A DNA stretch of 49,016 nt, from positions 1-49,016 of the IMG/VR virus record IMGVR_UViG_3300029914_000039. One strand, written 5' to 3'. Of this stretch, positions 10,710 through 42,245 are shown in pieces; the stretch's first letter is position 1; each line of letters begins with the position of its first letter. Source of the DNA: a virus. The position numbers were made by a program, and so were the translations under genes. The notes beneath the pieces were generated by a model. That model saw nothing but the letters and a program-made list of their open reading frames with translations. It searched no databases and was not told the origin of the DNA.

Positions 10710-11723
10710 AGTTTTCAGGGCGGCGATGACACGACCAACGATCCCGGGAACCCTTTCGGCTCGGAAGGAACTGTCGAAACCGTCCACACGGTCATCCCAG
10801 GCCAAGACCGGCTGGAGGTAGGCGAGGACGATCCCCTTCCCACCGAAGAAGTGGCAGAGGAATCCGCACCACCCCAGAAGCCCATCAAGGATGGGGCCCA
10901 GACCGAAGAAGGGCTGGCCAAGCGGGAGTCCGATGCCCGCGAAGCACAGAGGGCCATGGGCAAAGCCCAGGCGAAACTGGAAGCCACGCTCGCTCAGGTC
11001 AACAAGAAGTTTGGCGACCTCGATGAGCAGATCCAGAGGCTTTCTACCCTCCAGGTTACGTCTGGTGGCATCCCCACCGACCTAAACCCTGCTGATGCGG
11101 CCACGGTCACGCAGTATCGGGAGGACTACCCTGAAGCCATTGGGGTCATGGAAGCCCTGATCGCCCCCCTGTACCAGATCATCGGAGACCTGCGGGAGCA
11201 GGTTAAGGCAGTCGTCCAGAACCAGGGCCAATTCTTCTCCAAGATGAAGGAGGAGGAAGTCTTCAGCGGGATTTACCATAAGATCCCGAAGGAGAAGGTA
11301 GCGTCCCTCACCACGGACCCCGTTTTCCTGGATTGGTTGGCAAGCAAGCCCCCAGTCAAGGGTAAGTACTACGTGGATGTGCTCAACAATACGAGCAGGT
11401 ACACGTCCGAAGAGGCGCTTGATGTGTTCAAGGATTTTTCCAGGGACACTGGCGTTGACCTAGGCCTGAACGGGAAACCGGCGCGAGTCGCCCACCCCAT
11501 GGACACTGCCCCCAGAGTCCGAACCGGAAGTGCGCTCCCGCCACCTCCCTCACTTCAACCTGAAACCCCCACGGAAGACACCCCTCTGTCGCTCGCCGAA
11601 CTGGCCACTTTTGGAAGAGACCTCCAGAACGCCAGAACGGAACGGGAGCGGGAAGTCCTCCGCAAACGCTTTGCCGCATCCACGATCAACATTGACGGGC
11701 GGAATGCTCCGCAGTTCGCCTAG
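10590..11723 (+). CDS. capsid scaffolding protein
   Basis: 377-aa acidic, low-hydrophobicity protein immediately upstream of the major capsid gene. It is rich in Glu, Gln, Lys and Pro, with a long predicted coiled coil (AQRAMGKAQAKLEATLAQV, about residues 115-150, and further helices to about 230) and a C-terminal helix rich in Arg/Glu (RTEREREVLRKRF) near residues 350-362, like the capsid-binding helices of P22/T7 scaffolds. Scaffolds guide procapsid assembly and leave before maturation. The first 40 codons, including the ribosome binding site, are duplicated in inverted orientation at 37394-37522. Ribosome binding site: GGAG 8 bases before ATG 10590. Confidence 0.8.
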   Translation: MADKTFKEPKPSPNDQAGLDILAQAGFVRDPETGQMVHQESFQGGDDTTNDPGNPFGSEGTVETVHTVIPGQDRLEVGEDDPLPTEEVAEESAPPQKPIKDGAQTEEGLAKRESDAREAQRAMGKAQAKLEATLAQVNKKFGDLDEQIQRLSTLQVTSGGIPTDLNPADAATVTQYREDYPEAIGVMEALIAPLYQIIGDLREQVKAVVQNQGQFFSKMKEEEVFSGIYHKIPKEKVASLTTDPVFLDWLASKPPVKGKYYVDVLNNTSRYTSEEALDVFKDFSRDTGVDLGLNGKPARVAHPMDTAPRVRTGSALPPPPSLQPETPTEDTPLSLAELATFGRDLQNARTEREREVLRKRFAASTINIDGRNAPQFA

Positions 11724-11762: not shown

Positions 11763-12734
11763 ATGGCCATTATCCGCGATCCCAACCCCAGCCCAATGAC
11801 GGGCGTCACCGACTCCAGCCAGCCCCTCTTGATCGAACAGATCGTGGAAGGTCTGACCATGGACATCATGCGCCGGGAGTCCTTCCTGGGCCGCATCGCC
11901 AACACGGAAGCGCTGAAGAAGCTCGAAAACTTCGGTGACACCATCACCTTCCGCATCCTCAATCCCCCCCCGATCATGCCCTACATCATGAACCAGGATC
12001 TGGTTCCCACGGCCACGACCGGCAACAACTTCTCCATCACGGTCAACAACGCCTTCTACGGCTACCCGACCCTCGACCCCATCGACATCAAGCAGATCAA
12101 CGTGCCGCTCATGGGCAACCTGGCGCGTATGCTGGCCGATGCCCACGCCGAGAACGAGTACAACGTGGTCGTCTCCGGCCTGATCACCACGGTTTATGGC
12201 GCCACCGTCATGAACTACGAAGGCCAGGTCCCCGGCACGGTCGCCTACAACCCCACCACCCCCATCACCCCGGCTTCGACCTCCAGGACGGACGCCGCTG
12301 ACTACATCGTCAACCAGTTCATCAGCGCCCGCAAGGCTTACAACCAGCTTGCGATCCCGCGCAAGGGCCGGTACGCGATGGTCAATTCCGATGTGGAACA
12401 GATCCTGCTCGAAAGCGACCAGTTCACCTACCAGATCAGCGGCGAGCAGAACCGGAAGGCCATCGAAGACGGCGATTTCGGCATGAAGGTGGCCGGCTTC
12501 GACATCATCGTGACCGACTCCATCCCCACCGCCACCTACAACGGCCAGACCAACATCGCGCAGTGCGTGCTCGGGCACCAGAATGGGCTGGGCTTCATTC
12601 GCCAGCTCATGGAGACCGACATCAACTTCAAGATGCAGACCAAGTTCAACCGCGCTTGCCGGCAGTTGGACGTTTTCGGCTACGGTCTCAGCGACTCCCG
12701 CTACATGGGCGCTCTCCCGGTCAAGGTGGCCTAA
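11763..12734 (+). CDS. major capsid protein (HK97-fold)
   Basis: 323-aa protein directly after the scaffold. It shows the beta-rich, Asn/Pro/Gly-rich composition and motifs of podovirus coat proteins: RRESFLGRIANTEAL (residues 37-51), GDTITFRILNPP, then the P-domain/beta stretch, KGRYAMVNSDVEQILLES near residue 203, and the C-terminal GFDIIVTDSIP. Codon use is strikingly uniform (mostly C-ending codons, for example atc, acc, ttc, aac), much more biased than in neighbours, as expected for the most abundant virion protein. AAAGGAATCCATC provides the ribosome binding site. A hairpin follows the gene. Confidence 0.85.
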   Translation: MAIIRDPNPSPMTGVTDSSQPLLIEQIVEGLTMDIMRRESFLGRIANTEALKKLENFGDTITFRILNPPPIMPYIMNQDLVPTATTGNNFSITVNNAFYGYPTLDPIDIKQINVPLMGNLARMLADAHAENEYNVVVSGLITTVYGATVMNYEGQVPGTVAYNPTTPITPASTSRTDAADYIVNQFISARKAYNQLAIPRKGRYAMVNSDVEQILLESDQFTYQISGEQNRKAIEDGDFGMKVAGFDIIVTDSIPTATYNGQTNIAQCVLGHQNGLGFIRQLMETDINFKMQTKFNRACRQLDVFGYGLSDSRYMGALPVKVA

Positions 12735-16987: not shown

Positions 16988-18151
16988 ATGAACCCATCCA
17001 TCGTTTTAACGATGATCGTCAGAAATGAAGCCCGTGTTCTGCCTAGAAGTTTGGCTTCTTTCCGCGCCCTGGGTAAGACCGGGTGCGATCTGGCGTATGC
17101 CATCGTTGACGGTGGGTCCACCGACCATTCCATCGAGATCATCGAGCGGGAGATGGTCGGGACCAAGGGTCGGGTCCAGATGGTCCCCCAACCTCAGCCT
17201 TTGGACGACTTCTCTGCGGCCAGAAACGCATCCATTGAACTGGCCCGCCCCCTGGCTGGCTGGATGTTCATGCTGGACGCCGACGATGAAATCGTGGTCG
17301 ATCCTGGGTTCAAGATGCCCGACTTGGACGCCATCGGGGTCGGTGGGTTCGCCATCAAGGTCAGGTTTGGGAGTGATGAATTCTACCGTCCTGCCTTGGT
17401 GAAGTCTTCTCTCCCATGGCATTACGAGGGTGAACTTCATGAGCATATCGAATGCACTGGGGGGTCGCCTATCCCTCGTCTTGAGGGCATCCATATCCTG
17501 GTCCACCCGGGCGAAGGGTCAAGGAGCGCAGACCCCCGCCAGAAGTTCCTGAACGATGCACTAGTGCTGCGCAAGGCACTGGAGAAGAAACCCGGAGACC
17601 CCCGCAACCTGTTCTACCTGGCCCAATCTCTTCGGGACGCAGGTGAGTTGAACGACAGCCTCGCCGTCTACGAGGAGCGGGGCAACATGATGGCGGCATG
17701 GGACGAGGAGACCTACTTCGCCTTGCTCCAGATCGCCAGAATCAAGGCCGCACTAGAACTGCCCTTGGATGAGGTCCAGGAAGCCTACCTGCGAGCCTTC
17801 AACTTTCGGCCGACCCGCGCCGAAAGTCTTGGGTTTCTGGCTGAATACCTTCGTCTGAAGGGGAAGTTCACCTCTGCTGCTTACTTCGCCCATGCAGCTA
17901 TGCAGATCCCCAAGCCCGGGGATGTCCTTTTCGTGGGCTGTGACTGGTACGAGTGGCGGGCCGAGGACGAGTTTTCGGTCGCCTGCTTCTATCTTGGAGA
18001 CCCCGGGGCCAGCAAGCGGGCATGTTTGAGCCTTCTGACCAACCCCAAACTACCTGCCGCCCACTGGGAGCGGGTAAACAAGAACCTGGCCTTTGCCAAC
18101 GAAGCATTGAGCCGCCTCACCCACCCGAAACAGGAACCCGTGAGCGTATGA
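16988..18151 (+). CDS. family 2 glycosyltransferase with TPR-like C-terminus
   Basis: 387-aa protein. The N-terminal GT-A domain shows LTMIVRNEARVLPRSLASF, the nucleotide-binding VDGGSTD (residues 40-46) and the metal-binding DADDE (97-101). The WHYEGELHEHIE segment (about residues 142-153) is typical of GT2 enzymes fused to tetratricopeptide repeats. Residues 190-370 are helical pairs (RNLFYLAQSLRDAGELNDSL; ALLQIARIKAAL) that resemble TPRs. It would transfer a sugar from a nucleotide donor. Its place inside the connector cluster suggests glycosylation of a virion protein or of host surface sugar; the acceptor cannot be told. No signal peptide, so it is cytoplasmic. Confidence 0.8.
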   Translation: MNPSIVLTMIVRNEARVLPRSLASFRALGKTGCDLAYAIVDGGSTDHSIEIIEREMVGTKGRVQMVPQPQPLDDFSAARNASIELARPLAGWMFMLDADDEIVVDPGFKMPDLDAIGVGGFAIKVRFGSDEFYRPALVKSSLPWHYEGELHEHIECTGGSPIPRLEGIHILVHPGEGSRSADPRQKFLNDALVLRKALEKKPGDPRNLFYLAQSLRDAGELNDSLAVYEERGNMMAAWDEETYFALLQIARIKAALELPLDEVQEAYLRAFNFRPTRAESLGFLAEYLRLKGKFTSAAYFAHAAMQIPKPGDVLFVGCDWYEWRAEDEFSVACFYLGDPGASKRACLSLLTNPKLPAAHWERVNKNLAFANEALSRLTHPKQEPVSV

Positions 18152-38625: not shown

Positions 38626-38960
38626 GGTTCAGTCTCCTTGAGCCTGATATGGGTTCGTTCGATGAGAACCTGATGGATTTCGTCCAGAATCCCGCCACCT
38701 TTTTCCACCCAGTGCCAGTCCAAAATGCGGTCATGCATGGCCTTGAACACCTGGACCTCTTCGACCGGTCGGGCGTAGTAGCATTTCTTGCCATCGACAA
38801 ACAGGGTATTCCCCTGCCGGCGCCAGAAAAGCATCCACCCCAGGGCGGCGCACTGCAAGTCCTCTTCTGGGGTGTCCCAGATAAACAGCGGGTTGGTTAG
38901 ATGCGCAGGGTAAAGCGGAGCAACCCCTAGATCAAGGCCCGACTCCCAATCGTCTTCCAT
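38613..38960 (-). CDS. hypothetical protein (115 aa)
   Basis: 115-aa protein, ATG 38960 with AAAGGAGATCAGAG upstream. Mixed alpha/beta with several Trp residues (ALGWMLFWRRQGN), a Lys/Tyr strand (LFVDGKKCYYARPVEEVQVF) and a helical end. Overlaps the following gene by 13 bases. No family recognised. Confidence 0.55.
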   Translation of the reverse strand: MEDDWESGLDLGVAPLYPAHLTNPLFIWDTPEEDLQCAALGWMLFWRRQGNTLFVDGKKCYYARPVEEVQVFKAMHDRILDWHWVEKGGGILDEIHQVLIERTHIRLKETEPCKK

Positions 38961-39051
38961 CTCTGATCTCCTTTGCTGCTTTTAAAAACTGTACCATTGC
39001 GAACTCGTACGCCGTTTTGCCTTCTGGTGTGTTAATCCATAGCGGCGGCAA
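38932..39051 (-). CDS. 39-aa miniprotein, TTG start (tentative)
   Basis: TTG at 39051 follows CAAGGGATGAA, a good ribosome binding site. The product PPLWINTPEGKTAYEFAMVQ then FLKAAKEIRDGRRL looks protein-like (amphipathic helix, mixed composition), and its end overlaps the next gene by 29 bases. It starts just after the hairpin element and could be the remnant of a longer gene whose 5' part was replaced by that element. Real translation is uncertain. Confidence 0.4.
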   Translation of the reverse strand: MPPLWINTPEGKTAYEFAMVQFLKAAKEIRDGRRLGVGP

Positions 39052-39156
39052 TTCATCCCTTGGCGGTTGACTTCATCCCCGGCCTGAACGCCGGGGCTTT
39101 CCGCCCCCTCTCGCCTCTCCCCCTTGGCGGGTAAGAGGCGGTGAAGAAGAGCTGGC
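39052..39156 (-). ncRNA. IS200/IS605-type right end / omega-RNA-like scaffold without transposase (candidate)
   Basis: On the minus strand, a CGCCTC/GAGGCG stem (39112-39117 with 39135-39140), then GGAAAG, then the hairpin CCCCGGC-GTTCAG-GCCGGGG (39077-39096), then GATGAAGTCAA (ending at 39067). This order (subterminal GC hairpin, GATGAAG, TCAA terminus) is how the right ends of many IS200/IS605-family elements and the 3' ends of TnpB-associated guide RNAs look. No tnpA, tnpB or iscB gene is visible nearby. The segment is bracketed by a 10-bp direct repeat CCCTTGGCGG (39057-39066 and 39121-39130). It may be a relic, a mini-element or a stand-alone guide-like RNA; chance resemblance is possible. 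Confidence 0.35.
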
Positions 39157-39945
39157 TCATCTGATCTCCCTTAAGGCATGGAACTGTCTCAGGAGGTCAT
39201 CCTTGCGTTCCTGGGCCATGTTCCGGGTGTAGTCCAACTCCCACTTGAACTGGGTCTCCATGATCTCCCAGGATCTTGCGGGAGGGTGGTAGCCCTGGTC
39301 TAGCCACTGCTTCCACATGATCAAATGTTCGGCCACGAACTTACCTTGGCCGTAGCCCTCGGACTCTGTGTGGGAATCGCCGTGGAACCGAATATCCAGC
39401 GAACGTCCTGTAACCGTCATGGCGTTGGTCCTGGAAAGAACGTCCACAAAGAACATCCAGTCGCCGCTGACGTAGTTGTAGTTGCCCATCAACGGCAGGT
39501 ATTCGCTGCGAAACACGGTCCCCATCATGGGGCATTGGTGGTGGGCGAAGATGTCTTCAAAGGTCACGGTCCTTGACGCTCCTTCCATCCAACTCACGCC
39601 GGCCTCGGGGTGGGCATCCAGAAGTTCAATGCATGGTCGCAGAGCCCCAGGAAGCAGGCGGTCATCATCGCACATGGTCGTTGCGTATTCCCCAGCGGCG
39701 TTCTCTCTGAGAATGCGTGATGCTTCTGGCAGGTTGTTCTCATCCAACCGCCACCATCTGAACCGGGTGTACCCCAGGGACTTCAGGTAGTCCGATGTCT
39801 CTGGGGTGCTGCCGTTGTCCACGATGAGCAGTTCCAGGTCAACATCCTGCGTCAGAATTGAGGCAACGGCCTCGGGTAGCCACTGGATCCTGGGATGTTC
39901 GGGACTGTGCCACGTGGACATCAAGACTGAGATTTTAGGGTTCAT
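39157..39945 (-). CDS. family 2 glycosyltransferase
   Basis: 262-aa GT-A enzyme. ISVLMSTWHSPEHPR and AVASILTQDVDLELLIVDNG (with VDNGST at residues 42-47) form the nucleotide-binding strand and loop; CDDDR (92-96) is the DxD metal site; GDWMFFVDVL (about residues 178-187) and DIRFHGDSHTE lie where GT2 enzymes have the acceptor-side motif. The ATG 39945 was chosen over further upstream in-frame codons because those lie within the terminator stem and the previous gene's antisense. It would transfer a sugar from UDP/GDP-sugar; acceptor unknown. It is isolated: a terminator sits directly upstream, so it needs read-through or an unseen promoter. Confidence 0.8.
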   Translation of the reverse strand: MNPKISVLMSTWHSPEHPRIQWLPEAVASILTQDVDLELLIVDNGSTPETSDYLKSLGYTRFRWWRLDENNLPEASRILRENAAGEYATTMCDDDRLLPGALRPCIELLDAHPEAGVSWMEGASRTVTFEDIFAHHQCPMMGTVFRSEYLPLMGNYNYVSGDWMFFVDVLSRTNAMTVTGRSLDIRFHGDSHTESEGYGQGKFVAEHLIMWKQWLDQGYHPPARSWEIMETQFKWELDYTRNMAQERKDDLLRQFHALREIR

Positions 39946-39954
39946 CACACCCAC

Positions 39955-39993
39955 CAAAAAAGAGGAGGGCCGGGATTCACATCCTGACCCTCC
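39955..39993 (-). terminator. intrinsic terminator
   Basis: On the minus strand: GGAGGGTC (39986-39993) pairs with GGCCCTCC (39964-39971), with one G-U; the inner GGAT-GTGA-ATCC extends the stem; TCTTTTTT (39956-39963) follows. Classic Rho-independent terminator between the 56-aa gene and the glycosyltransferase. Confidence 0.8.
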
Positions 39994-40012
39994 AGAACTG
40001 TGGCTGGTTGAG

Positions 40013-40183
40013 TTACTTGTTCGGCTTGGGATCCTTCCGAAATTCCCGTTCTGGGGTGGGCTGGGTATTCGGCTGAAAGATCGGATCCGCATCCCGTTCG
40101 ATGCCCAGGTTGTGCGTGTACCGCATGTAGGCCGCTGGGTCCGCAGGGTCGAACGGCGGGGGGCAGGGCTTCTTCTCGGCCAT
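40013..40183 (-). CDS. 56-aa Pro-rich hypothetical protein
   Basis: ATG 40183 with GTGAGGGACC upstream, seven bases after the previous stop. MAEKKPCPPPFDPADPAAYM then RYTHNLGIERDADPIFQPN: soluble, Pro/Asp-rich, probably extended. It ends just before the intrinsic terminator, which supports it as the last gene of its transcript. Function unknown. Confidence 0.5.
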   Translation of the reverse strand: MAEKKPCPPPFDPADPAAYMRYTHNLGIERDADPIFQPNTQPTPEREFRKDPKPNK

Positions 40184-41468: not shown

Positions 41469-42245
41469 TCAGGCCGTGGCCTGGGTTGGATGTTCAGCGG
41501 CCCATTTCGCGGCCATGCGCTCGGCCTCGGCGCGGGTAAAATTGTAGGCGCGGCCGCGCTGTTCGCACGATTCAGAGCCATCGTCTGGAAACTCGTTGGG
41601 GTTGCTAGTTCGGATGCCTCCGATGGCATCCCACTCGGCCAGGGATTTCCACAGGCACCCCATGCGGACCCAGGGCACCCCGGAATCCGTTACCACGGCC
41701 CAGCATTGGTATGTGTAGAGGCCAGAAAACACGGCCATGGCAGCGATTTTACCGGCATCGCGCAGGGTGGCACCGATCAGGTTGGCACCGCGCAGGTTGG
41801 CACCGCGCAGGTCGGCATCGCTCAGGTTGGCACCGCGCAGGTCGGCATCGCTCAGGTTGGCCCCGCTCAGGTTGGCACCGATCAGGTCGGCATCGCGCAG
41901 GTCGGCATCGCTCAGGTTGGCCCCGCTCAGGTTGGCACCGATCAGGTCGGCATCGCGCAGGGTGGCACCGATCAGGTTGGCACCGCGCAGGTTGGCACCG
42001 ATCAGGTCGGCACCGCTCAGGTCGGCCCATCTCAGGTCGGCCCCGCGCAGGTCGGCCCCGCGCAGGTTGGCCCCGATCAGGTTGGCCCCGCTCAGGTCGG
42101 CCCATCTCAGGTCGGCCCCGCGCAGGTCGGCCCCGCGCAGGTTGGCCCCGATCAGGTTGGCCCCGCTCAGGTCGGCCAAGCAGCCATTTTTGTGAGAGGC
42201 CAGCGCGGTGGCCAGTTCGTCAGGGGTGTATTTTTGCATCGCCAT
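41469..42245 (-). CDS. pentapeptide-repeat protein (258 aa)
   Basis: N-terminal helix ([20 protein letters not shown]) followed by about 28 pentapeptide repeats A(D/N)LxG/x (for example [20 protein letters not shown]), which fold into a right-handed quadrilateral beta-helix. Residues 165-258 form a separate alpha/beta domain ([40 protein letters not shown]) known from other phage pentapeptide proteins. Such proteins can mimic DNA and act on gyrase or other enzymes, or act in defence or anti-defence; no specific role can be assigned here. The repeats are highly alike in DNA, so copy number may vary. Confidence 0.8.
41757..42178 (-). repeat. 15-bp tandem repeats coding pentapeptides
   Basis: Near-identical 15-bp units (of the CAGGTTGGCACCGCG type on the plus strand), including longer duplicated blocks such as 42004-42093 against 42079-42168. 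Indicates recent block duplication inside the pentapeptide gene. Confidence 0.85.

Follow-up and report, generated by a model that had tools for sequence, protein, structure and literature searches.

How does a hairpin of the kind that marks the ends of IS200/IS605 transposons come to lie in a phage operon, in a record from which both genes of such transposons are missing? The stretch of DNA analyzed here (the window) is the whole of IMG/VR virus record IMGVR_UViG_3300029914_000039, 49,016 nt in length, which by gene content is a phage contig (terminase, head–tail adaptor and major head protein are encoded). A protein encoded at 41469–42245 (minus strand) has several repeated stretches; its matches are PHROGs without a known function and, at a weak level, a family of tail fibres. 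The hairpin is on the minus strand, between the gene for a family-2 glycosyltransferase upstream (39157–40092, minus strand; PF00535, E 1.2e-12) and the next gene of the operon. In a first-pass annotation, made from the sequence alone, it was taken for an IS200/IS605 right end or for part of an omega-RNA, the guide RNA of TnpB nucleases, with neither transposase nor TnpB nearby. That absence extends to the entire 49-kb record, in which profile searches found neither PF07282 (TnpB) nor PF01797 (TnpA, the Y1 transposase). We consider it highly probable that the unit is a terminal-only remnant of an IS200/IS605 element (a palindrome-associated element, PATE), which would have arisen by a deletion from hairpin to hairpin and which probably lies in a small phage gene.

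Read on the minus strand from 39134 to about 39049, the order of the unit and its borders is TTAC/CCGCCAAGGGGGAGAGGCGAGAGGGGGCGG-AAAG-CCCCGGC-GTTCAG-GCCGGGG-ATGAAGTCAA/CCGCCAAGGGATGAATTG, where the slashes mark the edges of the unit. TTAC (39131–39134), with C next to it, corresponds to the left target and cleavage tetranucleotide of IS608 (C_L), and AAAG (39097–39100), at the foot of the hairpin, to its left-end guide (G_L, as opposed to G_R, which is GAAT; PMC5934647). Between them is a left linker of 30 nt (39101–39130), which has CCG at its start and GGCGG at its end, as in relatives. The subterminal hairpin (39077–39096) has a 7-bp stem and the loop GTTCAG, with GGCGGAAAG directly 5′ of it, and is followed by the tail ATGAAGTCAA (39067–39076) with the right-end tip TCAA (C_R). 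If TTAC is taken as the border, the inserted unit comprises 64 nt (39067–39130), which can also be counted as 54 nt and a duplication of 10 bp, since the direct repeat CCGCCAAGGG is present both after TTAC (39121–39130) and after TCAA, on the target side (39057–39066). The hairpin, tail and direct repeat of the first-pass annotation are exact. The motif is more than chance: a single site in the window combines AAAG, a stem of at least 7 bp and TCAA 4–8 nt further on, and 150 simulated windows matched to it in dinucleotide composition had no such site. Folding of the full 136-nt stretch departs only mildly from expectation (z −1.87).

The same motif is found beside tnpB and tnpA in annotated elements, which bears out the IS200/IS605 layout that had been proposed from the letters. 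When a 201-bp segment was compared by blastn with 7.3 Gb of plasmid sequence, the matches were short hairpin regions of IS200/IS605 elements; those at tnpB/tnpA elements had E values of 9e-5 and 3e-4. Five haloarchaeal plasmids have the hairpin 3′ of a gene for TnpB or a transposase, at a distance of 12–25 nt; a Streptomyces plasmid has it at the left end of a tnpA–tnpB pair; and one Acidianus virus and one Komagataeibacter phage have it 5′ of a gene annotated as transposase. The hairpin core is present in 25 viral contig stretches; among 20 records checked, TnpB was present in 11. The GATGAAGTCAA variant of the tail had no match when 257 Gb of genomes were scanned for the exact pattern; it is therefore rare and shared with just one viral contig. 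A covariance model (R1), built with the window left out, matched the window at 39114–39067 with 54.1 bits, the next site scoring 17.7; because the window's own core had led to the members of the model, this score is partly circular and backs the flanks more than the core. The second match (17051–17077, minus strand; 17.7 bits, E 0.025) consists of CTTACCCAGGGCGCGGAAAG in a glycosyltransferase gene, lacks a hairpin and is probably due to chance. A solitary hairpin is also present in the Sulfolobus plasmid pHVE14 (L005, 1910–1985), with GGGGGCGGAAAGCC upstream and GAGGAAGTCAG downstream; 14 nt of its left flank are shared with the window, and no tnpB is annotated in the 4.5-kb stretch examined.

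Which end of an element does the hairpin represent? In IS608, the left target TTAC goes with the guide AAAG and the right tip TCAA with the guide GAAT, TTAC/C being preferred (PMC5934647). Elements in which both ends could be seen (from Streptomyces, L056; from Allochromatium, L004; and a mini-element, L089) have left ends of the form TTAC/C(C)...AAAG-hairpin-GATGRA and right ends of the form GAAT-hairpin-RGTCAA. Left ends that are annotated or linked to tnpB likewise have AAAG-hairpin-GATGRA, and TCAA is absent from them. The window has the left-end target, the left-end guide and the right-end tip TCAA on a single hairpin. Judged by these motifs, the unit is not a plain right end and would be classed as a single-hairpin, terminal-only unit; of the earlier “right end”, the tip stands, whereas the target and the guide are those of a left end. 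A fragment of the right end of an IS605/IS1341 element, its upstream part lost by ordinary decay, would explain the match of both tail and hairpin to right ends, and in haloarchaea such ends have GGAAG where the bacterial TCAA-tipped ones examined here have GAAT. This explanation is nevertheless improbable, as the bacterial right ends with TCAA tips do have GAAT, the window has AAAG and TTAC/CCG in left-end order, and the two-sided layout is common to many independent single-hairpin units. Three further loci (L045, L006 and L062) had been considered as omega-RNAs 5′ of tnpB; a left-end reading suits them better, because the three both-ended elements show both ends and because one copy, at 340500 of a 619-kb viral contig, runs into a truncated tnpB.

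Eleven other single-hairpin units, of 45–51 nt, were tabulated from other viral contigs. Together with the window they have in common a target TTAC/C or TGAC/C, one hairpin, and TCAA 6–7 nt past the hairpin. The 619-kb contig (IMGVR_UViG_3300022719_000283; 618,736 bp) has 11 IS605-end matches (L063, L069, L073, L077, L081, L084, L087 and L089–L092), six of which are single-hairpin units; a single-hairpin unit at 51754 of the contig has the other guide, GAAT. Further matches are left ends, including the 340500 copy, and a two-hairpin mini-element of about 255 bp (L089, 597013–597270), and the contig encodes three TnpB and one TnpA. Guides and tails are mixed in this contig in a way that looks like separate crossovers. 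The contig is unusually rich in IS605 ends and could be host DNA classed as viral; at 226000–230000, a serine-recombinase-like gene adjoins a TnpB-like gene, an IS607-like arrangement. In a prophage (L050), two single-hairpin units 700 bp apart (11537–11590 and 12238–12290) are alike in their left parts and differ in their flanks and right tails. One of the two directly follows the stop codon of a single-strand-binding-protein-like gene. Plasmid pAt1 of Allochromatium tepidum (L004, about 2463–2545) has a two-hairpin mini-element of about 75 nt, comprising the left hairpin, GATAGC, the right hairpin and GTCAA, which is an apparent intermediate between the full element and the single-hairpin form.

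Such units could originate from a full or two-hairpin element in which the near-identical hairpins of the left and right ends recombine. Recombination would remove everything between the hairpins, leaving one single-strand hairpin, flanked 5′ by the left target and guide and 3′ by the right tip, an event comparable to the birth of a solo LTR. This has been described in Haloquadratum, where 52-bp “terminal-only” elements were explained by deletion between the palindromes at the two ends of a PATE or a tnpB element, and are possibly still mobile (PMC3119063). The window unit fits this kind closely. Like the Haloquadratum forms (HqIRS46 and the core-deleted forms of ISHwa23, 52 bp; PMC3119063), it has a single near-terminal palindrome, related to IS605-type ends, with the left target TTAC/C on one side and the right tip TCAA on the other; these units are about 50–65 bp and gene-free, and a deletion from the left hairpin to the right one is the explanation given for them. 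At 64 nt, the window unit is too short for a transposase gene, and none is present. It differs from the Haloquadratum elements in being in a tailed-phage contig, in its linker, 16 nt longer, and in its 10-bp direct repeat. An autonomous IS200/IS605 element would have tnpA or tnpB between two ends; the unit shares TTAC/C, AAAG, the subterminal hairpin and TCAA with IS608 and IS605 but has one hairpin rather than two and neither gene. The plasmids of Borrelia also have free-standing IS605 stem loops, i.e., end hairpins without transposase, near the 3′ ends of genes (PMC2775950), but these are separate left or right stem loops, whereas the window has both end types on one hairpin. REP sequences mobilised by TnpA_REP (PMC8266576) are likewise short non-autonomous hairpin units from the world of Y1 transposases; the record analyzed here, by comparison, lacks PF01797 and has a single copy of the unit. 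A non-autonomous element or relic, one of the options of the first-pass annotation, is supported. The unit encodes nothing, and would at most be a DNA substrate for TnpA supplied in trans.

The left linker is 30 nt in the window, compared with 14–15 nt in relatives of the TTAC type and 11–17 nt in all single-hairpin relatives; because it is 16 nt longer than in the closest relatives, the boundary is uncertain and TTAC may be fortuitous. IS200/IS605 elements make no target duplication, so the 10-bp direct repeat is unexpected for such an element; it is present at both edges, and the boundary is ambiguous. Within the surplus 16 nt, the CCGCCAAGGG of the target side recurs and the left flank is approximately repeated in inverted form, and an imperfect inverted repeat, CGCCTCTTACCC/GGGGGAGAGGCG, spans the left junction (39112–39140; arms 39112–39123 and 39129–39140, 83% complementary). 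Possibly, repair or fold-back at the left junction gave rise to the surplus, although other histories would do so too. A 10-bp target duplication by a transposon of another type was considered and rejected, as it leaves the IS605 anatomy unexplained.

What did the unit enter? An ATG at 39160, preceded by the ribosome-binding-like AAGGGAG, overlaps the stop codon of the glycosyltransferase gene (ATGA) and opens a small ORF, MSQLFFTASYPPR... (39121–39160, minus strand), which is then frame-shifted by the unit. When the flanks were joined in silico at the direct repeat, taking out 64 nt, an ORF of 54 codons was restored that reaches into the start of the next gene; its 3′ part, ending in DELPPLWINTPEGKTAYEFAMVQFLKAAKEIRDGRRLGVGP before the stop codon, would be at 38932–39056 (minus strand). 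Downstream of the unit, only the frame of the restored ORF is open. The restored ORF has a codon score of 2.8, a value that exceeds the wrong-frame 99th percentile (−5.4) and that real genes also have. Because joining at the 10-bp repeat restores the frame, the unit probably interrupts a small gene of the phage operon, and most likely inactivates it; the empty site is predicted to read TTACCCGCCAAGGGATGAATTG, with the 54-codon frame open. Neither phages, plasmids and viral contigs nor Pfam yielded a relative of the restored protein (best PHROGs E 0.15), and searches with the glycosyltransferase, the flank pattern and the protein found no related phage with an empty site or intact small gene, nor, in the first two, any relative of the phage. 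The connector gene as query brought up three short fragments alone, which are identical to it and do not cover 39 kb. As no intact homologue was found, disruption of the gene is supported rather than proven.

Could the hairpin instead be the 3′ end of an omega-RNA or miniature guide RNA carried by the phage, with CCGCCAAGGGATGAATTG... as the guide, redirecting a TnpB of the host or of a rival in trans? Hairpin and tail resemble the right ends of tnpB elements, which, notably in haloarchaea, encode the 3′ part of the omega-RNA, and the terminal hairpin followed by GANGANGTCA is like the 3′ scaffold of TnpB omega-RNAs and HgcC (RF00062). TTAC also stands before a partial copy of the would-be target. 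An Rfam scan at gathering cut-offs, however, matched no family, including the omega-RNA models (RF03065, HgcC and HEARO); the best sub-threshold match, exactly over hairpin and tail, was HgcC, which scored 18 bits where 50 are required (E 0.08), and the upstream scaffold and TnpB are absent. The guide tetranucleotide is of the left-end type, and known omega-RNAs are, to our knowledge, longer than 64 nt. The 41 nt after TCAA, the would-be guide, had no match among sequenced phages, the sequences after TCAA have nothing in common among the other single-hairpin units, and the intact empty site to which the guide would correspond is where the element itself inserted. A working guide RNA carried by the phage, which the first-pass annotation had entertained, is unsupported and unlikely, and its redirection of a TnpB in trans very unlikely indeed.

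A transcription terminator or regulatory hairpin of the phage itself, with no tie to transposons, would suit a hairpin that is compact, rich in GC and placed between two genes of an operon. Yet a T-run, which together with a GC hairpin makes an intrinsic terminator, is absent, a scan for promoters and terminators listed nothing at the hairpin, and both the flanking motifs and the similarity to the ends of tnpB elements would be left unexplained, making this reading very unlikely as well.

Terminal-only remnants of IS605 have already been described, and the window unit is an ordinary one rather than a new guide-RNA system. Its significance is that such remnants, known from Haloquadratum, occur in tailed-phage and other viral contigs too. 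Single-hairpin units can mimic stand-alone guide RNAs of TnpB and can mislead surveys of “orphan” omega-RNAs. To distinguish remnants from omega-RNAs, a simple rule is to look for mixed left-end and right-end features, i.e., the guide (AAAG versus GAAT) and the tip TCAA.
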